A program made the translations under genes and the position numbers. A stretch of 37,643 bases of DNA from Volutella citrinella (lineage: Eukaryota > Ascomycota > Sordariomycetes > Hypocreales > Nectriaceae): the NCBI GenBank assembly GCA_034401135.1, contig JAWZSP010000026.1, positions 1 to 37,643 on the forward strand, read 5' to 3'. The notes beneath the pieces were generated by a model. It was not told where the DNA came from, ran no database searches, and worked only from the letters and a program-made list of their open reading frames with translations. This document shows positions 10,301 to 37,643 of the stretch, one piece after another; the stretch's first letter is position 1, and each line of letters opens with the position of its first letter.

Positions 10301-10775
10301 GCAAATAATATTTAGTCTATTAACAATGTTTTTGGCTACTTTTCTAAAACAGTCTTAATGTTTGATACTTTAATGGAAAAACCACTAAACTTACTTAGAT
10401 TTGTTGTCATTGTTTTTCATGTAAAATCATATAGAAATTAAGAAAATTCTTAATACTATACTATAAATTGCGCCGTTAGTTCACTCTATATAAGTGCCGT
10501 AAGTCCGCTTCATCTTATACATATCTCCCAGAATACTTTGGTATTTGTGTTAGCTTCTAGCCGGTTCTCCGACATGGATACCTGTATGCTGTCATGTATG
10601 TACAATCATGCGTTAGCATAAGCTAAGATATGAAATTTTTTATAACCCTTAAGGATTATAATTTTTTATTGGTATTGATGTACTATAATTAAGGCAATTA
10701 GTATATACATTAGTATATACATTAGTATACCATTAACAAGAATTGATTTAGGGGCGGGCCGTAGGCTCGCTCTAC
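10301..10775 (+). other. trnR2 to ORF-cassette spacer
   Basis: This 475-bp non-coding region contains an imperfect 22-nt palindrome, TTATAACCCTTAAGGATTATAA (about 10640-10661), and a short tandem repeat of ATTAGTATATAC (two full copies and a partial one, 10697-10731). It ends in a GC-rich cluster, GGGGCGGGCCGTAGGCTCGC (10751-10770), right before the left 47-bp direct repeat. No gene is recognised. Confidence 0.5.
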
Positions 10776-10822
10776 ACATTAAAGTATTATTAATGTTATT
10801 AGATTGCATAGGGACTATATGT
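10776..10822 (+). repeat. Left 47-bp direct repeat flanking orf167
   Basis: Positions 10776-10822 match 11316-11362 at 46 of 47 bases (A/G difference at 10782/11322). The repeat includes AGTATTATTAATGTTATTAG followed by ATTGCATAGGGACTATATGT. The start codon of the enclosed ORF (ATG 10819) lies at its right edge. Confidence 0.95.
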
Positions 10823-11322
10823 ACATACATACCGATTATTCAAAAAAAAAATTAATAGATTATACAATAACTACTATGATCTTATTAAAAACAATTTATA
10901 ACTATTTGTGTTTAGATGCACCTAAACCTCATAAGTTTACTACTCTAAACTTAAAAAGCTCTTTAGCTGAAGTAACTGAAATTTCATCTAAAATTAGCGA
11001 ATTATTACCTCAAATTACTGATTTTATTCATCAATTCAATACTCTTATTAACACTAATAGTATTAGTGTTATAACAGACACAATTGGAAATATGGAAATC
11101 GAAGGTCCAGCTACTCTGTCTGACGCAGATTTAAATAAAATAGGTAAAAGAATAGGTATAATAGATCGTTTAATTACTGCTAGGGGTGAACAGATCAGTG
11201 ATTTAATCCATAAAGGGTTAGAGCTTGAAGCAAAGTTAAAAAAAGAAGATCTTAATTATACTTCTCAATTAGTTGAAAAAATTAATGAGTTTAAGAGATT
11301 AAAATTATCTTATAAACATTAG
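10819..11322 (+). CDS. Uncharacterised ORF (167 aa) in a direct-repeat cassette
   Basis: I do not recognise this protein. From ATG 10819 (a TTG at 10804 is a weaker alternative) it is 167 aa, ending at TAG 11320. The N-terminus is short and mildly hydrophobic (T-M-I-L-L-K-T-I-Y-N-Y-L-C-L-D-A-P-K-P). The rest is hydrophilic and looks mostly helical, with heptad-like stretches (S-K-I-S-E-L-L-P-Q-I-T-D-F-I and L-E-A-K-L-K-K-E-D-L). The segment C-L-D-A-P-K-P faintly resembles the Cox2 N-terminus (D-A-P-L-P-W), which could be chance. No LAGLIDADG or GIY-YIG motif is visible. Codons such as CTG, GAC and GCC-like triplets look less AT-biased than in neighbours. Start and stop both lie within the flanking 47-bp repeats, suggesting it came in as one 540-bp unit. 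No TGA is used, so it would read the same in the standard code. Confidence 0.6.
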   Translation: MYIHTDYSKKKLIDYTITTMILLKTIYNYLCLDAPKPHKFTTLNLKSSLAEVTEISSKISELLPQITDFIHQFNTLINTNSISVITDTIGNMEIEGPATLSDADLNKIGKRIGIIDRLITARGEQISDLIHKGLELEAKLKKEDLNYTSQLVEKINEFKRLKLSYKH

Positions 11323-11362
11323 AGTATTATTAATGTTATTAGATTGCATAGGGACTATATGT
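11316..11362 (+). repeat. Right 47-bp direct repeat flanking orf167
   Basis: This is the second copy of the 10776-10822 repeat, 540 bp downstream. The TAG stop of the enclosed ORF lies within its first seven bases. After the repeat, an ATG in the same position opens only about 16 codons. Confidence 0.95.
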
Positions 11363-12886: not shown

Positions 12887-13084
12887 GGTGTTTTTACATA
12901 AATAGGTAGTTCATGGCATTTTATACCATTATGACGAACAATACGGTATAGAGTAAAAAAGAGGAGTAGGTGGATTCCCTGCCCTTCTTAAAATCATTCA
13001 TAATCTCTTAGGAGATTGAACATAGTAATATAAATATCATATATATTTATTTTGCCAATAATCCCTGATATCAAGAAATATACC
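12887..13084 (+). repeat. Dispersed non-coding repeat, copy A
   Basis: This copy has two modules. Module 1 (12887-12927, 41 nt) is present in inverted orientation at 15193-15233 with 39 of 41 matches. Module 2 (12937-13084) is present in direct orientation at 15243-15392, including GAGGAGTAGGTGGATTCCCT and a small hairpin AATCTC-TTAG-GAGATT. It lies upstream of nad4. Confidence 0.9.
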
Positions 13085-13138
13085 CGAGTAATTATAAATT
13101 ACGGATTTTTTTTTGATTTTAAATTTATTAGTTAAGTT

Positions 13139-15078: not shown

Positions 15079-15483
15079 TACAAATTAGATTGTGGATAGT
15101 AAAGCTATCTTCGTTAAAATCGGATAGATAGCAACAAATTGAATAGATAGAGCTATCGTCTTTTATGATATAAAAGTATTCAAGTTTATAGCGGTATAAA
15201 ATGTCATGAACTACCTATTTATGTAAAAGCACCGTTATAACCAACAATACGATTTTAGGGTAAAAAGGAGGAGTAGGTGGATTCCCTGCCCTTCTTAAAA
15301 TCATACATAATCTCCCAGGAGATTGAACATAGTAATATAAATACTAATAATATTTATTTTGCCAATAATTCCTGATATCAAGAAATATACCCATATTATT
15401 ATAATTAATCTATTATACTCTAAAACCATAGGATGTAATAGAGGAATTACTAAAAATAATATAATTTAATTCATAAAAAAAAT
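15079..15483 (+). other. atp8-atp6 spacer with repeat copy B
   Basis: This 405-bp non-coding region is mostly made up of copy B of the dispersed repeat (15193-15392). The first 110 bases contain AGATAGCAACAAATTG-type AT-rich sequence with no gene that I can support. An insertion here is odd because atp8 and atp6 usually lie close together. Confidence 0.55.
15193..15392 (+). repeat. Dispersed non-coding repeat, copy B
   Basis: Module 1 (15193-15233) is the inverted counterpart of 12887-12927. Module 2 (15243-15392) is a direct copy of 12937-13084. The internal hairpin is conserved as a stem while its loop changes from TTAG to CCAG (AATCTC-CCAG-GAGATT), which suggests that the RNA structure may matter. 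It lies upstream of atp6. Confidence 0.9.
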
Positions 15484-16260
15484 ATGAAAAATAATTTCTT
15501 TACAGAAATTATAAGTCCCTTAGATCAGTTTGAAATAAGAGACGTATTACACTTAGAAATTTTAAGTGGTAATTTCCACTTATCATTAACAAATATAGGA
15601 TTATATTTAACTATAGGTGCTTTAATTATATTAACTTTAAGTATAGTTTCTACTAACTATAACAAATTAGTAAGTAATAATTGATCTATAGCTCAAGAAT
15701 CTTTATATGTTACTATTCATAACATAGTAACAAATCAAATAAATGCTAGAAATGGTCAAATTTATTTCCCATTTATTTATACTTTATTTGTATTTATATT
15801 AATAAATAATTTAATAGGTATGGTTCCTTATAGTTTCGCATCAACAAGTCATTTTGCATTAACATTTGCTCTTAGTTTTACAATAGTATTAGGTGCTACA
15901 ATTTTAGGATTCCAAAAACATGGATTAAAATTCTTTTCTTTATTAGTACCAGCTGGTTGCCCATTAGCTCTTTTACCTTTATTAGTTACTATAGAATTAA
16001 TTTCATACTTAGCTAGAAATGTTTCATTAGGTTTAAGATTAGCCGCTAATATTACAGCCGGTCATATGTTATTAAGTATATTAAGTGGGTTTGTTTATAA
16101 TATAATGAACTCAGGATTTATATTCTTTGTTTTAGGTTTAATACCATTAGTATTTATTATCGCTTTTTCAGGATTAGAATTAGCAATAGCCTTTATTCAA
16201 GCTCAAGTATTTGTAGTTTTAGCCTCTTCATATATAAAAGATGGTTTAGATTTACATTAA
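15484..16260 (+). CDS. atp6: ATP synthase subunit 6
   Basis: This encodes subunit a of the Fo sector, which forms the two proton half-channels next to the c-ring. It is 258 aa, from ATG 15484 (M-K-N-N-F-F-T-E-I-I-S-P-L-D-Q-F-E-I) to TAA 16258. The essential Arg is Arg185 in S-L-G-L-R-L-A-A-N-I-T-A-G-H, and the C-terminal helix has A-F-I-Q-A-Q-V-F-V-V-L. TGA at 15682 is Trp. In yeast the first residues are cleaved from the precursor; the same may apply here. Confidence 0.97.
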
Positions 16261-16819
16261 TTAAATATACAAAAGTTACTATATTCACTGCTATAGTGAT
16301 AAATAGATTCTTGAAGAAAACTTTTATGGTACATAAAGTATATTATACTTTATAAATTAAAAATATTAATAAAATTGTTTGATTAATATAGTAATCATAA
16401 GAGAAAAGCGAAATATCCGCATATAATGGATATATAAGAACCAGAGGAATATATATACTAGTTATATTGTAACATATAATTATAAATATATAGGTAAACG
16501 AAGGAAAGTTATGTAAACAATAGTGCAAATCCCCTTCAACAAGGGAATTAGGTAAAATATATGGTCTTTTATATACAGAAAATAGTATAGAATTATTTAT
16601 ATAATTCACATAAAAAAAGCGGACAATTGCTCAGATTGTAGAAAAGTATTTTTAGTAATTTTCACGGTAAATAGCTTATAGTTTATCTATATATATAATT
16701 TAACATATATGTTTATAGGATAGCTAGTATAAAGGATGCGAAAGAACATCCCCTCAAAAACATCACTGATTAATACTTAGATCAGTTAGTGATATAAATT
16801 ATATTATATCAAAAAGTAT
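16261..16819 (+). other. atp6-rns spacer
   Basis: This is about 560 bp of non-coding, AT-rich sequence. It has small hairpins: CCCTT-CAAC-AAGGG near 16530-16550, GGATG...CATCC near 16733-16753, and ATCACTGA...TTAGTGAT near 16762-16796 just upstream of rns. An 88-codon minus-strand ORF (16343-16609) has no family features and is not accepted. The rns 5' leader may begin inside this region. Confidence 0.5.
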
Positions 16820-26719: not shown

Positions 26720-26790
26720 GCCTGATTAGCATAAAAGTAATGCAATTGTTTTGTAATCAATAGAAGTAAGCGCGATACTTACATTGGGCT
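26720..26790 (+). tRNA. trnT: tRNA-Thr(TGT)
   Basis: The acceptor GCCTGAT/ATTGGGC pairs with two wobbles. The anticodon loop TTTGTAA gives TGT, with one T-T mismatch closing the stem. The T-arm is GTAAG-CGCGATA-CTTAC. The gene is 71 nt. Confidence 0.88.
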
Positions 26791-27132: not shown

Positions 27133-27214
27133 ATCCGAGTGGTGGAATCGGTAGACACGTCGAACTTAAGCTTCGATGCTTCAAAGCATGAAGGTTCAAA
27201 TCCTTCCTCGGATA
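27133..27214 (+). tRNA. trnL: tRNA-Leu(TAA)
   Basis: The acceptor ATCCGAG/CTCGGAT is perfect. The anticodon loop CTTAAGC is closed by TCGAA/TTCGA, giving TAA for UUR codons. A long variable arm (ATGCTTCAAAGCAT) is present. The gene is 82 nt. Confidence 0.93.
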
Positions 27215-27321: not shown

Positions 27322-30300
27322 ATGTTATTATTTTTAATTATATTCTACAATAGAGTAGTGTATTATACACTATATTGTAGTAATGTATATGTCTTGCCCA
27401 GGCATATACCCGGCATACACTGGGCCAATTTTTATAATATAAAAATTGTAAAAAATATAGGTATTATATTTATTCATTTATTAAAATTAATACCGTGTGT
27501 ATCATACATAGTGTTATGTTATGTTATAACCAAAGAAATAACAATTAACTATTGCATGATAGAAAATATAAATGATATACTATACCCTTTATTAAAAGGA
27601 GGAATAATAAAAATGAAACTTATCAATGGGACAAGTTACCTTTATCCATTAAAGTTAAAGTATTTCAATGGATGAATACATATAAATGTATTTATTTTAA
27701 TGTATTTATGTATAATAATACCTATATTATTCATTATAAATAATATAATAGCATGTATATTATACATATTAGCTTTTATTTTAATAAAAGCTATTTATAC
27801 AAATTTTTGAAATAAACATATAGGGTTTTTATTGCATAAGTGACAAAATAGAAATAAAAAGCAAGGACAATTTAAGCTATATATAGATTGAATCCGTAAA
27901 AATTATAAGTATTTACTTATAAAATTCATTCAAATATGAATTATTAGTTTTACCATCGTCTCTTTAAATAGAAACGTTGTAAAATTTTTATTTGGGGTGC
28001 AAACTGATAACTTAATATCTTCTTTATTAATAGTGATTCTGGCTTTACCTGTATCATTATTAATAATTAACATACTGGTGAAGAAATTAAAGAACGAAAA
28101 ATTAATTCTTAATGATTTTTATATATTTAATGAATTTATTATAGAAAGAGTTAACTTATATAGAATATTATATCTTATTTCTATAACAATTATCTATAAA
28201 AAGTATTACATATATTGAATTACTACAATAAGTATAATTATACCTATCATTATTATGATATTAACATTATTATTTATACATTGAATAGTACAAAAAAAGG
28301 TATGAAAATATTGTAATTCTAAATGAACAAACTTCAATCTCTCGTTAAGTAAACATAATAAAATTGTAGAATATAACTCCCGTAAATTAAGTTTAAATTT
28401 GGAATCCCAATCGGATTCCTTTACCGTGGCAATATCTTCTATCATTGGGGTAGGAGGTGTATTTCAAAAAGCTTGTAATGATGGTTTAATAGATTTTTAT
28501 AATGGAAACAAGGGACCTGGCTGAAAAAAAATTCATTTTTCTAATCCAGGTAAATATTATTCCAATGGTACTGTAAATATACTCCATAAACCGCAGAATT
28601 ATGTGCAAACAACTGAATATGATTCTATAATTGCAAAACATGAAGCTTATATAAATAAATCACCTATACTTAAGATAACACATAGACAAAAAAAGGCTAT
28701 AGATTGAGTAGTTGTTCCCCATAGTTATTTCAGTAATGAAACAGTTTATGGGTCAGTAGTACGAGTAAAAAAACATAATTTTTTTATAATTAATATTATT
28801 AGAAAAGATTGGGATGCTTGTGTATTTATGCCTTCATATTATTTACCCTTAGACCGGTCTAATGGTTCTCAGGTAAAAATTGATGAAGTTCAAAATTTCT
28901 TTGTAAGAAAATATAATATAATGCTCCCTATCCAAAAAACCGCAAAGGAAAAACCACGTACAGGTTTTATTGTGTTTACTCAAGCAGAATCTATTAACAC
29001 AGGAGGGCCAAGCTCTGGTTTATTTAGACATTGAAGACCTTTCTTGGGTTACGTAGATACGGAATTTCTAGTAAAAAGACCAAATGTAAAAGATTATTAT
29101 CATTTAGATAAGTTATCACACCTAAGAGTCAAAGGTTATAACAACCAGGAAATAATTATGAAGTTAAAAACATATATAGCTAAATATTTAACTTTATCAT
29201 CACTGAATGATAGAATTATATATGAATGTAAAGTTGACCTAGATTATACAAAGATGTTGTATTACTTTTTACTTAAAGGTCAAAAATGCAATAAGGATAA
29301 ATATTTTTGATTTCAAGAAGGTAAATGAGAGAATATATGTAAAAGAGAAAAAGAACTAAACGAATTGTTTAAAAGGGAAGGAGCATCACCAACTTGGATT
29401 GAAAAAGCAATCCAAGAATCCAAAGAGAAACAAGAGGCAAAAGATAAAAAAGTAGAATTACAAAGAAAACAAAAGCTAGAAGAAATAAAAAAACTAGAGG
29501 CAAAAGATAGATCTGATAATCAGCTTGATATAGAACTTGTATCTTATGATCTACTAGTTGAAGATATGAAAAATTTTAGGTTAACGGTCAAAAAACATGA
29601 CTATAATAATAATTCTGCGAGCTCAAGGGCAGATGATCTTGTTTTAAGTCTTCGTCGTAGCTATCCTAAAGATTATTCAATATGAAATCATGAATTAGAC
29701 TATTGTTTTTATTTACGTACAGCTAGGACAGGTTTAATAGAAGGTTTCAAAGGTAAAGGTCAAAAATTAGGAAATTGAGATGAAATTATGTACGTTCCAT
29801 TATCTGAATCTCGAACCAATCTATGAAATACTATATACAAAAAGTATCAAAATGGAGGGGTGCATGCTAAGGAGAATATAAAGAGCGTATATTCTATTTG
29901 CATAACTAGATTGACTTTTGAATTTTTAGAGTTTAGATCATTTAGTGATGTAAATTTATATGTGAATGATGATTCAGCTAAAGGTACTGAAGTTTATAGT
30001 ATTATAGATACTCATAATCAAAATCTTAAGACTGTGTTAGAAACACCTCAGGGAAATCAAGAGATTCAATTACCTAAAGATAATTATAATTTTTTTAACG
30101 ATATTGATGAATATTCTATAAGAAAAGTTATGGATCTTTTATACAGATGTCCAGATAAGGATCTGTATTATCATTCAAATTTCTTAAATGAATTTTGAGA
30201 TGATAAGGTAAAACTGTCCTATGAGAAAAAATTTAATAAATTTGCTAGTAAATTTATGGTTAAAAAATTACTGGATCAGCATATTGCTGAAGTAGTAGAG

Positions 30301-30978
30301 GCAAAAAAACCAAAGGTTTTCCCCTGAGGTAAAGTAACTGAAGAGGATATAACTGCATATTTTGACGCTAAAAGTACTATACGTAATATATGGACAACAT
30401 CAGGAGGACTTAATCCTATAGATCCGTTAGACCAGGAAGTATTACGATCGAAAGCACGTGAAAATATTCAGCACAACAAAGTAGTGGCCCATAATCAAGC
30501 TACAGGTGTAACCCAAAAATACTCACCTCGTCCATCGAATGCCTATAAAAGAAGTGTAAAATTGAGAGTATGTGAAGCAGCTTACGAATCTAGAAAAAAA
30601 TTAGATAAATCTAAAGCTGCGGTAGCAGCTAAAGAGGTTGAAATAGCCAAGGAAAAAGTTGAAAAAAGAGTAGCTGCTCCATTAGAAGCTAATTTAACTA
30701 AAACTTTAGAATTGGATAAAGAGAACACTAGTACCGACCAGTGAGCAGTTTCAGAAGACGTAGGTTTAAATCTAGATCTCTCTCCAATATTGGATGATAT
30801 TTACGTTGAACCTAATACAGAGGAGGCGCAAACTCACTCTGAGGAATTTAGTTCTGTTCTTTTGGGAAGAATGGAGGAGGAAAATTGATTTGGCCTTCCT
30901 TCGCGTGCATATCAAGATTTTATGTATGCACCTGGAACTGATACTATAGAAGACGAGGATATATATTCGGCAAATTAG
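27322..30978 (+). CDS. Giant membrane-anchored ORF, paralogue 1 (1218 aa, LV-uORF type)
   Basis: This is a protein of unknown function, matching in place and size the large variable-region ORF (LV-uORF) described in Fusarium mitochondria. It is continuous under code 4, with about 20 TGA and 4 TGG tryptophans. Hydrophobic segments lie at about residues 43-70, 121-160, 197-215, 231-252 and 299-322. The motif D-F-Y-I-F-N-E-F-I-I-E-R-V-N-L-Y is at about 266-281. The soluble part has G-F-I-V-F-T-Q (548-554) and W-R-P-F (571-574), shared with the two ORFs downstream. A charged coiled-coil-like stretch (about 690-725) and V-Y-S-I-I-D-T (about 890) follow. A unique C-terminal extension is Lys/Ala-rich (about 1075-1120) and then acidic. 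No polymerase, helicase or LAGLIDADG motif is visible. It lies between trnL and trnA. Confidence 0.85.
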
Positions 30979-31193
30979 GTATAAAATCTCTCTCCGATGG
31001 AGGGCAAGCATACTATTGTATGAATTTTATATTTGGTATAATGAATAATAATATTTAGAAAAGCTTCTCGTTTAGAAATTAGTGGGTATATATGCTATTA
31101 GCATAGCTAAGCTAACGCTTTAAATTTTTAATTAATTATTTTACAGTATAGTATAAAATAATATATATAAGTACATCGTATACTTATATATTA
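30979..31193 (+). other. Spacer between giant ORF 1 and trnA
   Basis: This is 215 bp of non-coding sequence, with small hairpins such as TCTCTCCGATGGAGGG near 30990 and an AT-rich palindrome GTATACTTATATA region near 31178. No gene is seen. Confidence 0.5.
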
Positions 31194-31264
31194 GGGGATG
31201 TAGTTTAATGGTAGAACTCCAACTTTGCAAGTTGGCTATCTTGGTTCGATTCCAAGTATCTCCA
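31194..31264 (+). tRNA. trnA: tRNA-Ala(TGC)
   Basis: The acceptor GGGGATG/TATCTCC pairs with two wobbles. The anticodon loop TTTGCAA is closed by CCAAC/GTTGG. The T-arm is TTGG-TTCGATT-CCAA. The gene is 71 nt. Confidence 0.93.
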
Positions 31265-31267
31265 AAC

Positions 31268-31340
31268 GCTCAGGTAACTCAATTGGTAGAGTGAAGCATT
31301 GAAGCTGCTTCTGTTGTAAGTTCGAGTCTTACCCTGGGCA
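31268..31340 (+). tRNA. trnF: tRNA-Phe(GAA)
   Basis: The acceptor GCTCAGG/CCTGGGC has one T-G pair. The anticodon loop TTGAAGC is closed by AAGCA/TGCTT. The T-arm is GTAAG-TTCGAGT-CTTAC. The gene is 73 nt. Confidence 0.94.
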
Positions 31341-31402
31341 CGGGTAATCCTAATCCCGCCAGCGTAAGCTAAAAAATTTAGAAGATATATAAACATAAAC
31401 AC

Positions 31403-33534
31403 ATGACAAGACACACATTTAATAATAAAAATAGTCTATTTACTAGACCCAATTGAATAATAATTGTAAATATAATTATTACTCTCTTAATTTTAAGTTT
31501 GCTATTTATAGCAAACGATTCTTTGGTAATAAAATTATTTTCTTTATGAGATAATGAATTATCAAGAATTATTTATATCAACAAAGTAAATTGTGTTGAA
31601 TATTTTCAATACCAGGGAAAAATATAGGTATAAATATATTTACGTTTTTGGTATTAGTATTTAATTTCGAAATGATTATCATAAAGCTATGTATATTATT
31701 ATGTCAAAATTTTAATATAATTTTGTTAATATTATTAAGTTTATGGTTTTCGACAGCTCTTACTAAAAACTTTTGAGCTAAGCATATTTTAAAATCTAAT
31801 GCAGATCTTATTTCTAAATTCTTTTATGTATTAGAAAATAAAAAATATACTTTTATATTAGTAAGTATTGCTATTACAATATTCATTGTTTTTATTAGCA
31901 GACTAATAAGTAGAAGTGCAGTATGTTTTTTATTAGGAGGGGTAAACCCTTCTTTGGATATATTATCTTATAGTTTAATGATATTACTGTCTTGACCTTT
32001 ATTATGATATATGGCTAATATTATACAAAAGTGACTAGGAATAGGGCAGAAGGGGAAATCTACGTATTCCAAACAACGACTAACGGATGTAGATTTTGAA
32101 TTTTGTAATCCCTATGTAGTAGAAAAAGTAAATTTATATGCAATAAGTTTGAATTTAATAATAAATTATTTAATAACTATTAATTTGTATTGATCAAGTA
32201 TATTTATATGTATAATAATATGTATTTCTTATCTTCTAATAAAGTATGGAAACGATATATTTATGTATTGTATATATATAAATCCAGCAAATATTATGTT
32301 ATTTTCGAGTGGTGCCACTTGAGAGGGGCTTTTAGCGATAGCTGCAGTTTTATCTACCGGTTTAGCAGAAACTGATTGATCGACGGTTGGTACTAACAGT
32401 ATTGTCTACCGTAATCACCACGAGGAATTCATTAATGGTACTTGAAATTGATATTCAGGACACGGAAGTAGAATAAGACCAGGTAGAGCGTTCAGAGAAT
32501 ATAATAAAGACGAGAGCTTACGTAACTTACGTTCTCAAACACGTCAACTCCTTAATGATAATGGGGTACATTTACCTTATATTCAATATAAGTATAATAC
32601 ATCTTTTTCTGCACCAAAATTTCAAGGTTTCAGCTTAAATTCTTACATAACCCATGATTCTAATACCTTAATTATGTTTATAAGGAGTTATCAGGACAAT
32701 AGTGTAAAATATGTACCAAGTTTCTTTAATGATCCTGGTTTGAAAAATGTTGATAGGGACCTAAGAGAAAAATTTGGAATATTTACACTTGATCCCCATA
32801 AATATTCTTCTTTAATATTATTTACTCAAGAACATAAAATAGAGGATTCTCCTTTTGTTAGGGTTTGAAGACCGCTCTCTTATTCACACATGCCTTTTAG
32901 GGATAGACAAAAAAATAATTATTTTCATTTAGGCATAGACACAACTAGAAGCGAGACTTCAATGGCTGGTACTATTCCTAGAATTGAATATGCAAAAACT
33001 TTACTTGCCTCAAAGTTAGATGATTATCATAAATGACAATATGTAAATGCCATAATAGAAGAATTCGTAGTATATTATGTATGACTAGCTAAGAAAAATA
33101 ATGACGGTCGTTTCGACGTAAACCTATCTACAGGATATACTGAGGGCTGGCTAAAAGATATCTATATAAATTACCATGATTGAGGATGAAGTCGTAAGTT
33201 ACTAACTCATAACAAGAATCATAATTTGAGATTGTATAAAAAAGATTTGGTAGCTCAACCTGGGTTTTGAGAGGTTACTGACAGGATTTTTGTGGGTAAT
33301 GTTGACAAATTAGATTTTGAGGCTCATGAGCTGATCAATGAAGATACAGGGAAAGAATTATATAGTATAATTGATACCCGTAACACCCTTAGATGAGAAA
33401 AAATATCTGATGGGGAAAACAAAGAATTTGTTTTATATAAAGATTCTTATAATATTTTTAATGATGAAGATAATACTTCAATAATCCAAATTATAGGTAA
33501 TCACTTTAATTGCACAAAGAAAGAATTTGATTAA
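31403..33534 (+). CDS. Giant membrane-anchored ORF, paralogue 2, with a -1 frame change near 31615
   Basis: This is the second LV-uORF-type protein, of unknown function. ATG 31403 opens a 74-codon frame (one hydrophobic helix, about residues 20-36) that ends at TAG 31625. The -1 frame is open from 31555 to TAA 33532 and contains the remaining helices and all family motifs. These are D-F-E-F-C-N-P-Y-V-V-E-K-V-N-L-Y (about 32092-32139), S-S-L-I-L-F-T-Q ... W-R-P-L (about 32806-32877) and L-Y-S-I-I-D-T-R-N (about 33360-33385). The spacing from the first helix to the second matches paralogue 3 only if both frames are read as one protein of about 710 aa. The heptamer GGGAAAA (31615-31621) lies in the right phase for a -1 shift. 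Without a shift, translation could begin at ATG 31672 (620 aa). About 20 TGA codons encode Trp. Confidence 0.75.
31615..31627 (+). promoter_or_regulatory. Candidate -1 frameshift site GGGAAAA before an in-frame TAG
   Basis: The zero frame reads CAG-GGA-AAA-ATA-TAG. The heptamer G-GGA-AAA fits the X-XXY-YYZ slippery form. Slipping back one base moves reading into the long downstream frame. The alternative is a one-base change in the five-A run, real or from sequencing. Confidence 0.45.
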
Positions 33535-33624
33535 TCCTAAACCAGTTAATAATAATTAAATTTTTATATATTACTTAATATTTATCTTTAAGTATAAAGT
33601 AGAAATAATAATAATTTCTACAAA

Positions 33625-33697
33625 GGAACTTTAGTATAATGGTGAATGCATATGACTTTTAATCATCAAAATGTAGGTTCGAATCCTGCAAGTTCTA
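33625..33697 (+). tRNA. trnK: tRNA-Lys(TTT)
   Basis: The acceptor GGAACTT/AAGTTCT has one G-T pair. The anticodon loop CTTTTAA is closed by TATGA/TCATC with one mismatch. The T-arm is GTAGG-TTCGAAT-CCTGC. The gene is 73 nt and lies between giant ORFs 2 and 3. Confidence 0.92.
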
Positions 33698-33744
33698 AGT
33701 CTATTCACTCTAAAAGTGGTAGACCATCCAAAAATAACTATACT

Positions 33745-36009
33745 ATGAAAAAAATTTTAATTACTTTATGAAAAAATATAGAAAATATAATTATGGCTTT
33801 GATTAGAAATTTTACAGGTTTAAACCATAGAGAGGTTTTAAGCCTATATTCTTTCAATAATAAATTTAAAATTTATAAATCATATAAATGGTTTAACTTA
33901 AAGAGATATAAACAATTAATTGAATGAACAATTAAAATAATATTGTTTATCTCTTTCTTTAGTATAATTTCTATATATATAGAAATCGAAATACCACCTA
34001 ACCTAGAACAACATAAAAATATGTTGTCTTTGGATTTTAGGGATTCAATTATAGAAACACTAGGAACTATAAAAGCATCAAATTCCGTACGTGTTCTAAC
34101 TTTCATATTAATATATGGAAATTTACTAAGTATAAATATGGGAATAATATTTATAAAATTCTTTATACAGAATACCTGCTTATTTATTTTATTATTTTTA
34201 AGCTGAAATTTCATAATAACATTTATGGACCAATTTATACAAAAGCATGTAAACATAACTAAATTTATTAGTCAATTTTTACATAAGTTTCCTTTTGATT
34301 GAGTATATTCCAATTCAGGCATATCTTTTCTAAAAGTAAAAAGTATTATTATGAATATTCTATTTATAATGTTTATTTATCTATTTATAAGAATGATTTT
34401 ATACAATGTAGGTAGTTTTTTATTAAATAATCCAGATGTTCATGATTATACTGCCTGTGGTTTAATAATGTTATTATTTTTACCTTTATCTTTATACTTG
34501 TTTAATATATTAACCAAACTTTTAAAAAAAAAGAAGTTAATGGATGAAGATTATTTATTCCATAATGAATTTGTAGTAAAAGGAGTAAACCTCTGTACAA
34601 TATCTATTATTATAATTATAAATTTATTAAAAAATTATAATTTATTATTTTTTAGTATATGCGTGTTAATTTTATTGGTTTTTATGTATCTTCTAACGGA
34701 AGAAAAAATGCAATATTTTTGAATTTCTTATATAAATAGTAACAAGTTTATTCAGTCTACACTACAGGCAAAATTACCCTTTATGGATTTCGTATACACA
34801 GCCGCTAGTTTATGTGGAGCAATAGCGTTAATGGATCCCCCTAGTATTAATCTTGACGAAATGGTGACGGGATATAGAAAAACAACTACTATTAGTGGTT
34901 GTGAAAATATTTATGATTATGGGGATAGAATAAATATTCAAAAATCATTTATAAATGATAATGATTTTATTAAATTGCAAAAAACAACACTTCATCACCT
35001 AAATACCGGACAGAGAGGGGGAATTCCTGATTATAACCATATGTCAATGTTTAAAAGCGATAAATTCATAGGGTATACCCTTAAGCCTTATGGGTGTAAT
35101 ATTAAGAAACCCGTGATTATGGTTATAAAAGATATTAATTCTAGCACTCTAAAATATTCTCCTAGTTTATTTAAAGATAATTTTGCAAAAGTTAGTGCAG
35201 ATCTTAAAAATAAATATGGAATATTTATAGAGAATTCATCAAAATATAGATCTTTGATATTATTAACTCAACGAATAGATATTGGAGATTCTTGTGCTAA
35301 GATTTGAAGACCTCTTTCTTATTACCATAGCCCTTCTACTCTTGAAAAATTTGTGTGAGATCGTGCCCTTAATATGGTTGTAGATCAGGAGCCTCCTGAA
35401 AATACTTATATAAGATATGGAGATTTTGAAATAAAAAGTCGTGTATTATATGAATGTAGGAATGTAACTGCTAAAGTTATAGCGAAAACAGACCCTCAAG
35501 ATATAAGAGGCTTTAATCAAGCAGCTAAAATGCTTTGTCGTTATAAGATGTTAGAATTATTTAATAAACCCGGTTTAGATCCAAAGAGTACTTTCGTGGA
35601 GAGCTATAATAAAAATTGCATGGTAGGATACATAAACTACCCAAATAAAAAAATTTATGTAAATTTTGAGTATCTTGATCCAAGTTCGGAAAAATTCGAC
35701 TATCAGCATAATAAGTTAGATATGGCTAGAGAAACTTTAGTTGAAAAAGTAAGCCAAGAAAGGGGCAACTCTTCAATAATTTATTTATTTAATGTGGATA
35801 AAACCGCATTTTCAATGCATACCATTGAATCGAGAGATAATAAATTATATAATATAATTGATGAATCTAATTTCCTTGATCTTAATCTAAATAACATACA
35901 TATTATTAATAAAAGTAGTTACTATGTCCATGGTGAAAGAGATGTTATTTCAATATTTAAATTATTAAATAAATTTGAATCACAAAGTGAACTTAATAAA
36001 AAAAAATAA
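33745..36009 (+). CDS. Giant membrane-anchored ORF, paralogue 3 (754 aa, LV-uORF type)
   Basis: This is the third member of the family, of unknown function and uninterrupted under code 4 (seven TGA tryptophans and one TGG). ATG 33745 gives M-K-K-I-L-I-T-L-W-K-N. Hydrophobic segments lie at about residues 64-82, 114-135, 138-160, 200-222, 231-252 and 290-318. D-Y-L-F-H-N-E-F-V-V-K-G-V-N-L is at about 270-284. The soluble part contains Y-R-S-L-I-L-L-T-Q (about 501-509) and W-R-P-L-S-Y (521-526), and near the C-terminus L-Y-N-I-I-D-E-S-N. The closest relative is paralogue 2 (K-[FY]-G-I-F...K-Y-x-S-L-I-L-[FL]-T-Q). It lacks the long Lys/Ala-rich tail of paralogue 1. The ORF begins 48 bp after trnK and ends 461 bp before trnL2. 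Confidence 0.85.
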
Positions 36010-36470: not shown

Positions 36471-36552
36471 GCAGGTATGCTGAAATTGGCAAACAGGGCC
36501 GCCTTAGGAGCGGTTGGCGAAAGCCTTACAAGTTCAAGTCTTGTTACCTGTA
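36471..36552 (+). tRNA. trnL: tRNA-Leu(TAG)
   Basis: The acceptor GCAGGTA/TACCTGT has one G-T pair. The anticodon loop CTTAGGA is closed by GCCGC/GCGGT, giving TAG for CUN codons. A long variable arm is present. The gene is 82 nt. Confidence 0.93.
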
Positions 36553-36920: not shown

Positions 36921-36935
36921 TTTTTAATCAAAGCC

Positions 36936-37643
36936 ATGATTATACTTTCTATATTATCTCTCTTATTAAGCAACGCCGTCACCCATAGACGAGATATATC
37001 AATACTATTTAATAGAATAGCGATATTAATTTTAACCTATTGTATCTTATTGGATATTTCTTCTTTATCTATAATTAGTAAAGGAGTAGGTTTACATGGT
37101 GGTTTATTATTTATTAATAATATCACACAAATATTTCATATTTTCATATTTTCAATTAGTATATTAATACTTCAATTGACTAGTTTTTATCCTAGAAAAG
37201 TCTGAGTTTCAGAACATTCATCTTTAAAAGATTTATTGTTACATAGATTTGTTTATTACAATACTAAAATAATAAATAAAATGGGAGAACATTTAAAAAT
37301 TATAGAATATCCTTTAATTATTTTATTTATTATAACTGGAGCAGTATTATTAATGTCAACTAATGATTTAATATCCGTATTTCTTTCTATAGAATTACAG
37401 AGTTACGGTTTATATATATTAAGTACTATTTATAGAAATTCTGAATTATCAACTACAGGTGGATTAATTTACTTTTTATTAGGGGGATTAAGTTCATGTT
37501 TCATTTTATTAGGAACTGCTTTATTATATGCTAATTCAGGTACAACTAGCTTAGATGGTTTATATATTATTACTAGTATAAGTGATGTTAGCGCGTCACA
37601 AGCTATCAGTACAAATTTTTGATATTCTCCTTATTATATAAAT
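36936..37643 (+). CDS. nad2: NADH dehydrogenase subunit 2, 5' part (continues at position 1)
   Basis: This encodes the N-terminal 236 codons of NADH:ubiquinone oxidoreductase subunit 2, a proton-pumping antiporter-like membrane subunit of complex I in the inner mitochondrial membrane. It starts at ATG 36936 ([11 protein letters not shown]), right after trnM3 and a 24-nt hairpin. The reading frame is open to the last base of the window, which completes a codon (aat). It continues in frame at position 1 with [22 protein letters not shown], the conserved core of fungal Nad2. TGA codons (for example 37203 and 37620) are read as Trp. Together with 1-990 the protein is 565 aa, normal for this family as I know it. 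The split is only an artefact of where the circle was opened. Confidence 0.95.

Follow-up and report, generated by a model that had tools for sequence, protein, structure and literature searches.

Three long reading frames between rnl and nad2

The DNA analysed here (the window) is the 37,643 base pair (bp) contig JAWZSP010000026.1 from the fungus Volutella citrinella (assembly GCA_034401135.1; 45.1 megabases in 26 contigs), and we are concerned with three very long open reading frames (ORFs), ORF1, ORF2 and ORF3, that lie in it between rnl and nad2. The window sequence is contig C26 of that assembly, in identical numbering, and contig C16 consists of 75,286 bases, exactly 2 × 37,643, holding two copies of it; the window is therefore one complete circular fungal mitochondrial unit. 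Its overall guanine plus cytosine (GC) content is 27.8%. The larger standard fungal mitochondrial genes are all on the + strand and read in genetic code 4 (core genes were named by eye, with Pfam confirmation for cox1 alone; the presumed rps3 has no Pfam confirmation). Both rns and rnl are present, nad2 is split by the window ends, and ARAGORN finds 22 transfer RNA (tRNA) genes, with one further Rfam tRNA match at 26720–26790. The position of the three ORFs matches, as the original prediction held, the description in PMC5604515 of the large variable (LV) region of Fusarium mitochondria, which carries a single very large ORF of unknown function, the LV-uORF (papers are cited by PMC number, and what we say of each refers to the parts of it drawn on here). 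The ORFs and the tRNA genes around them are as follows.

27322–30978, + strand: ORF1, 1218 residues in code 4 (3,657 bp), between trnL(taa) and trnA
31591–33534, + strand: ORF2, 647 residues in code 4 (1,944 bp), between trnF and trnK; TTG start, uncertain
33745–36009, + strand: ORF3, 754 residues in code 4 (2,265 bp), between trnK and trnL(tag)
27133–27214, + strand: trnL(taa), upstream of ORF1
31194–31264, + strand: trnA(tgc), between ORF1 and ORF2
31268–31341, + strand: trnF(gaa), upstream of ORF2
33625–33697, + strand: trnK(ttt), between ORF2 and ORF3
36471–36552, + strand: trnL(tag), downstream of ORF3, followed by trnQ, trnH and trnM and then the nad2 frame at 36936

The ORF3 frame runs upstream through trnK as far as an ATG at 33646, and since that codon falls within tRNA-Lys (33625–33697), the ATG at 33745 is the more likely start. 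Together the three ORFs occupy 7,866 bp, or 7.9 kilobases (kb), all on the same strand; their share of the mitochondrial genome is 20.9% and not nearly a quarter. TGA is read as tryptophan and is used heavily in them, as had been predicted (45 TGA against 7 TGG codons).

A 40-nucleotide inverted repeat (88% identity; 33770–33809 and 36921–36960) has one arm in the 5' part of ORF3 and the other at the beginning of nad2, flanking most of ORF3 and four tRNA genes. It scores 54.5 bits; the highest score among 20 simulated windows was 51.8.

The ORFs as diverged tandem paralogs

Comparisons among the translated proteins confirm that ORF1, ORF2 and ORF3 are diverged tandem paralogs. BLASTP aligns ORF2 with ORF3 at E = 3e-31 (28% identity over 669 positions) and ORF1 with ORF2 at E = 5e-8; ORF1 and ORF3 match directly at E = 0.002 only, within the hydrophobic part. 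A profile built from ORF2 and ORF3 matches ORF1 at E = 4.3e-9, at the hydrophobic part and at the YSIID block described below, and none of 500 locally shuffled ORF1 sequences was reported at E ≤ 100. At the DNA level the sole match between ORF2 and ORF3 is 32705–32884 with 35150–35323 (70%), which contains the ILFTQ...WRPL block of ORF2.

The common motifs named in the original prediction are present in each of the long code 4 frames. A six-frame search of the window finds each full motif three times, with a single copy in every ORF. The D-[FY]...VNL and FTQ...WRP motifs gave 0 hits in 100 windows simulated with a third-order Markov model, and [LV]Y[SN]IID gave 6. Their locations are listed here.

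28114–28158, + strand: VNL motif DFYIFNEFIIERVNL in ORF1, in the loop ahead of the sixth hydrophobic segment
32092–32136, + strand: VNL motif DFEFCNPYVVEKVNL in ORF2
34549–34593, + strand: VNL motif DYLFHNEFVVKGVNL in ORF3
28969–29043, + strand: IVFTQ...WRPF in ORF1
32815–32880, + strand: ILFTQ...WRPL in ORF2
35257–35316, + strand: ILLTQ...WRPL in ORF3
29992–30009, + strand: VYSIID in ORF1
33358–33375, + strand: LYSIID in ORF2
35845–35862, + strand: LYNIID in ORF3

The proteins also have a common architecture, a hydrophobic N-terminal half followed by a large soluble domain, which hydropathy reveals in all three in agreement with the original prediction. ORF1 has about seven hydrophobic segments in residues 48–323 and a soluble region after them; specific to it are a charged stretch at about residues 690–735, absent from ORF2 and ORF3, and a C-terminal extension, about 270 residues long and without a match in either (30166–30975, + strand, after residue 948, the last one aligned to ORF2; acidic-rich towards its end). 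For ORF1, ORF2 and ORF3 an automatic hydropathy scan gives segment counts of 6, 4 and 6, and a seven-segment scheme, in which the extra segments were placed by hand from the alignment, gives 7, 6 and 7. Membrane proteins tend to be oriented by the positive-inside rule. The loop between segments 3 and 4 carries 9, 6 and 5 lysine plus arginine residues in ORF1, ORF2 and ORF3, that between segments 4 and 5 carries 2, 1 and 0, and that between segments 5 and 6 carries 6, 6 and 5. Read by that rule, the pattern weakly suggests that the C-terminal soluble domain may lie on the matrix side. Three points weaken this placement: the loop between segments 5 and 6 also has 4 acidic residues in each ORF, leaving a net charge of only +2, +2 and +1; the N-terminus of ORF3, with 12 lysine plus arginine residues, suits another orientation; and the helices are in part those placed by hand, against the 6, 4 and 6 of the automatic scan.

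No known domain was found in the three ORFs (the best Pfam match has E = 0.11, NCBIfam gives none, and the best PHROGs match, with E = 0.016, is a family whose function is not known). The best match among solved structures, to RNase H1 over 75 profile positions (E = 0.02), was taken as chance. Structure prediction, on which one of the checks proposed for the family depends, gave nothing usable, the models having a mean predicted local distance difference test score of 33.9 for ORF3 and 37.5 for the soluble part of ORF2. Scans of viral contigs with ORF1, ORF2, ORF3 and their three-row alignment, of bacterial and archaeal genomes with ORF1 and the alignment, of plasmids with ORF3 and of phages with ORF1 found no relative in these collections, which are not meant for fungal mitochondria.

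The original prediction also suggested that the family could be selfish or plasmid-derived. In a selfish or conflict account the LV region would be a transmissible cassette, and the membrane proteins would help this type of mitochondrion to prevail in heteroplasmic cells or would steer inheritance. Tandem multiplication together with strong protein divergence would suit an element of this kind, and exchange of the whole LV region between clades of F. oxysporum has been claimed (PMC11633160), for the variants LVR2 and LVR3, both of them without the LV-uORF. In the same paper, however, LVR1, the variant that carries the LV-uORF, tracks the nuclear tree, and a heterokaryon trial saw no mitochondrial exchange. 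Pfam, NCBIfam and PHROGs give no plasmid polymerase, homing endonuclease, toxin, nuclease or recombinase domain in ORF1–3, and evidence of transfer is lacking in the V. citrinella mitochondrial genome. At E ≤ 1 there is no Pfam match in the three ORFs to the B-type DNA polymerase or phage-type RNA polymerase of invertron plasmids, nor to LAGLIDADG or GIY-YIG endonucleases; DNA_pol_B_2 has no match over the whole mitochondrial genome, though 14 control genomes likewise gave none. We regard a selfish or conflict element as unlikely.

Open frames, selection and decay

Frames of this length are not chance. When 300 stretches of 10 kb were simulated with the same composition, no open frame exceeded 220 codons, compared with 647–1218 in the three ORFs. 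ORF2 and ORF3 differ at about 425 bases in 328 aligned codons (the part of 605 aligned codons that remains when blocks with less than 28% identity or shorter than 15 codons are excluded). With 3.6% of changes creating a stop, two copies free to close should show about 15 stops between them, and 0 are present.

Codon usage sets the ORFs apart from the core genes. GC content at fourfold sites is 19.5% in ORF1–3 (n = 754); 11 core genes have 6.2% (n = 1386), the presumed rps3 has 7.9% (n = 114) and orf172, an ORF between cox1 and nad1, has 6.2% (n = 48). The value reaches 27.9% (n = 68) in the hydrophobic part of ORF1, and an intergenic sample of eight hand-chosen stretches has a GC content of 26.5%. 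The codons AGG, CGA, CGG and TGG are found 13, 5, 1 and 7 times in ORF1–3 (26 in total) and 0 times in the 11 core genes, with 1 in the presumed rps3 and 2 in orf172. Late arrival, low expression and weak selection would each be compatible with this usage, and codon usage does not distinguish among them. Silent sites unlike those of core genes are what a selfish element might show. They sit badly with an essential inner-membrane assembly factor or ribosome-associated factor, for which the multi-segment hydrophobic part and the possibly matrix-facing domain might otherwise speak. The large Fusarium ORFs are moreover reported to be absent from two related Nectriaceae (PMC6110257), and unrelated regions take their place in some F. 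oxysporum (PMC5604515, PMC11633160), facts that are relevant to an assembly factor only if ORF1–3 are relatives of the LV-uORF. We consider a factor of this kind highly improbable.

Paralogous, open, alike in architecture and untuned in codon usage, the three ORFs are tentatively read as one accessory family of mitochondrial membrane proteins, dispensable and fast-evolving, to which we assign a probability of about 0.45. Expression, topology, dispensability and role are what we infer from sequence, and the scenario would be as follows. Duplication within the rnl–nad2 tRNA cluster, followed by divergence, would have produced ORF1–3. Removal of the flanking tRNAs would free each ORF as a messenger RNA that could be translated on mitochondrial ribosomes; the N-terminal helices would insert into the inner membrane and leave the C-terminal domain, which contains the FTQ...WRP and YSIID blocks, facing the matrix. 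The family would be dispensable for respiration. Its persistence would most plausibly be due to an advantage that is conditional or acts at the level of the mitochondrion (in segregation, conflict or stress), and less plausibly to a role in assembly.

Several observations weigh against this reading. The codon model for ORF2 and ORF3 places silent sites at its upper bound and omega (the ratio of non-synonymous to synonymous change) far below 1, but we rejected this omega as evidence of selection because permuted controls give likelihood ratios of the same size: the ratio is 94.6 for the real pair, compared with a mean of 66 and a maximum of 105 in 30 controls in which ORF2 was aligned with locally permuted ORF3 codons. 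Identical residues make up 31% of the real pair and at most 28% of any control. At 124 identical residues the same codon is used 83 times, compared with 65.7 expected for independent codons, and saturation of silent sites may therefore be incomplete. The tail of ORF1 (30116–30925) has a decayed nuclear copy on contig C10 (322103–323002), from which it differs by 25.6%, about equally at codon positions 1, 2 and 3 (0.29, 0.24 and 0.24). Omega for this pair is 1.06 in a codon model (with 4 of the 266 codon pairs omitted because the nuclear copy has stops there) and 1.38 in a second estimate (bootstrap 0.97–2.04). The nuclear copy holds 4 in-frame stops, where 8.4 would be expected if all change were neutral (standard deviation 2.7; P = 0.06). 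This comparison reveals no sign of constraint on the ORF1 tail, yet it does not prove the tail free, because the nuclear copy itself is dead. The claim that the frames are held by selection thus stands only as far as their staying open is concerned and gains nothing from either omega estimate. In Fusarium, the LV-uORF of the F. oxysporum complex was judged non-functional on account of indels and fragmentation (PMC5604515), and 5 of 5 LV-uORF single-nucleotide polymorphisms (SNPs) within F. graminearum are non-synonymous (PMC6304159).

The ORF2 N-terminus may also be divided between frames, which would be consistent with decay. Read from the TTG at 31591, ORF2 lacks the first hydrophobic segment, and a short open frame (31403–31627, + strand, from ATG 31403) with one hydrophobic segment overlaps its 5' end in another frame. 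It is possible that this frame is the former N-terminus of ORF2. A codon score weakly prefers the short frame up to about 31550 and ORF2's own frame beyond. Similarity of the short frame is not significant either to the N-terminus of ORF3 (score reached by 282 and by 331 of 2000 shuffles) or to that of ORF1 (1994 of 2000). Just 5' of its stop lies GGGAAAA (31615–31621, + strand), placed in the frame as a –1 slippery heptamer would be; such heptamers follow a recognised slippery-site pattern, and about 0.2 in-register sites would be expected by chance in this stretch. The frame may truly be broken here, the consensus may contain an error, a programmed shift may join the two frames, or ORF2 may simply start later.

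An out-of-frame ORF2 N-terminus, the even divergence of the ORF1 tail and the resemblance of fourfold GC content in the ORF1 hydrophobic part to the intergenic value would all suit a decaying relic that once worked, possibly on a plasmid or within an element that was transferred, and now drifts with its frames open because the decay is recent. Fragmentation of the LV-uORF in F. oxysporum (PMC5604515) and its erosion to 2,748 bp in F. tricinctum (PMC7218506) would be parallels. Against such a relic, ORF1 and ORF3 are fully open over 1218 and 754 codons, all three motif blocks are kept in every copy, ORF2 and ORF3 are deeply diverged and both still open, and the omega of about 1 may come from the nuclear copy's own decay. 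We take decay to be a serious, if somewhat unlikely, explanation.

The nuclear copy has an unusual structure. Mitochondrial 30928–31016 comes first and 30116–30925 follows, with adjacent break points, an order that resembles a circle of about 0.9 kb (30116–31016) cut once and then inserted. The first 60-odd bases are near-identical to mitochondrial DNA and the second piece is 74% identical, a combination poorly explained by a single insertion. Part of the copy is repeated on contig C5 (about 653980–654527) at 98.7% identity, with nuclear flanking sequence 98% identical. Eight shorter nuclear matches (38–114 bases) correspond to other parts of the mitochondrial genome, seven at 88–100% identity and one (C11) at 72%, among them C8:1881458–1881528, C2:5373533–5373595, C1:5600215–5600276 and C3:5447561–5447645; most look younger or slower-changing than the ORF1-tail copy. 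An ORF3-like match on C8 was rejected as a copy of ORF3, being AT-rich self-similar DNA that matches many other parts of the window. Positions 1–883 of C10 match window 31006–31887 at 882 bases, the one difference being a single base within a run of T, and CCCTAA telomere repeats come directly after; the start of C7 likewise matches mitochondrial 15137–16411 with 11 single-base gaps and one mismatch. We gave up a reading of these contig ends as telomeric insertions of mitochondrial DNA: the errors are of the indel type and suggest that noisy long reads formed ligation chimeras at the chromosome ends.

Elsewhere in the window, orf172 (10804–11322) is an ORF of unknown function flanked by a 50-bp direct repeat (96%; 10773–10822 and 11313–11362). 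A PKPHxFxxLxLxS stretch in it resembles the end of cox1, but its score of 44 does not rise above shuffled sequences (best of 300, 54), and we rejected the idea that orf172 carries a cox1 C-terminal tail. The two copies of a 175-bp direct repeat (89%; 12925–13097 and 15231–15404) precede nad4 and atp6, and a 48-bp inverted match is close by.

Comparison with the Fusarium LV-uORF and other systems

ORF1 occupies the slot of the LV-uORF, with the same tRNA neighbours between rnl and nad2 (PMC5604515); ORF2 and ORF3 are at other places in that interval. The LV-uORF is likewise a very long code 4 frame without convincing domain matches, varying in length through insertions and differing in codon usage from the core genes (PMC5604515), as ORF1–3 do; these too lack a recognisable domain. 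It is, however, a single ORF, whereas here there are three paralogs of 3,657, 1,944 and 2,265 bp. Its size is 4.2–6.4 kb in four species (PMC7263005), compared with 3.7 kb for ORF1, and its GC content exceeds that of conserved genes, whereas the values here are 0.281, 0.286 and 0.250 for ORF1, ORF2 and ORF3 compared with 0.279 for the 11 core genes. We therefore compare ORF1 with the LV-uORF by slot and description, not by sequence, and do not class it as one.

Whether the Fusarium ORF codes for a protein is disputed (PMC5604515, PMC7214670). PMC5604515 cites Al-Reedy et al. 2012 for purifying selection on it. Between F. asiaticum and F. graminearum, 21 of 34 LV-uORF SNPs are non-synonymous (20 of 32 in the discussion of the same paper), with no indels or nonsense changes (PMC7214670). 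With ORF1–3 as a stand-in for codon content, 73–79% would be expected under neutrality, and the one-sided P for 21 of 34 runs from 0.01 to 0.11 with the transition weight. Homologs beyond Fusarium are reported solely as small matches, and relatives reportedly have quite different regions at the same place (both PMC11633160), which, with the reported absence of the large ORFs from related Nectriaceae (PMC6110257), speaks for a family that is accessory.

Variant 2 of the F. oxysporum LV region is similar in having 11–12 ORFs interleaved with tRNAs in the same interval (PMC5604515), but 4 of those match LAGLIDADG or GIY-YIG endonucleases and none of ORF1–3 does. The mitochondrial DNA of Ilyonectria destructans has the same rnl–nad2 tRNA order apart from an extra trnD, a GC content of 28.23% (27.8% here) and free-standing ORFs between tRNAs (PMC8837645); 3 of its 13 ORFs have a putative function, as a B-type DNA polymerase or as endonucleases, and ORF1–3 match neither. 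The word stems "duplicat-" and "paralog-" are absent from the main text of PMC5604515 and PMC8837645, and the literature searched, in the parts drawn on here, describes no paralogous family in the rnl–nad2 interval. A survey of 35 Hypocreales mitochondrial genomes reported duplicated genes at a 50% identity threshold and found nuclear copies of mitochondrial genes to be common (PMC7202290). A family as diverged as ORF1–3 would be missed at that threshold.

Plastid Ycf1/Tic214 is an organelle-encoded giant ORF with a multi-span N-terminus and a fast-changing soluble part. It is an analogy only, from another organelle, with a sequence relation neither tested nor expected. For the LV-uORF, three diverged copies in one genome provide an internal comparison that singles out conserved blocks and a common architecture, and these can be sought in the LV-uORF, giving a handle on the protein-coding question. 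One could speculate, at rather long odds, that ORF1–3 belong together with the LV-uORF, its fused or expanded member, to an undescribed family of mitochondrially encoded proteins that span the inner membrane several times and have a domain in the matrix. Such a family would be kept and multiplied because it biases what becomes of its own mitochondrial genome, and ORF2 would be made by a –1 frameshift at GGGAAAA. If the LV-uORF does have the same blocks, the claim that it was never functional would be hard to sustain.

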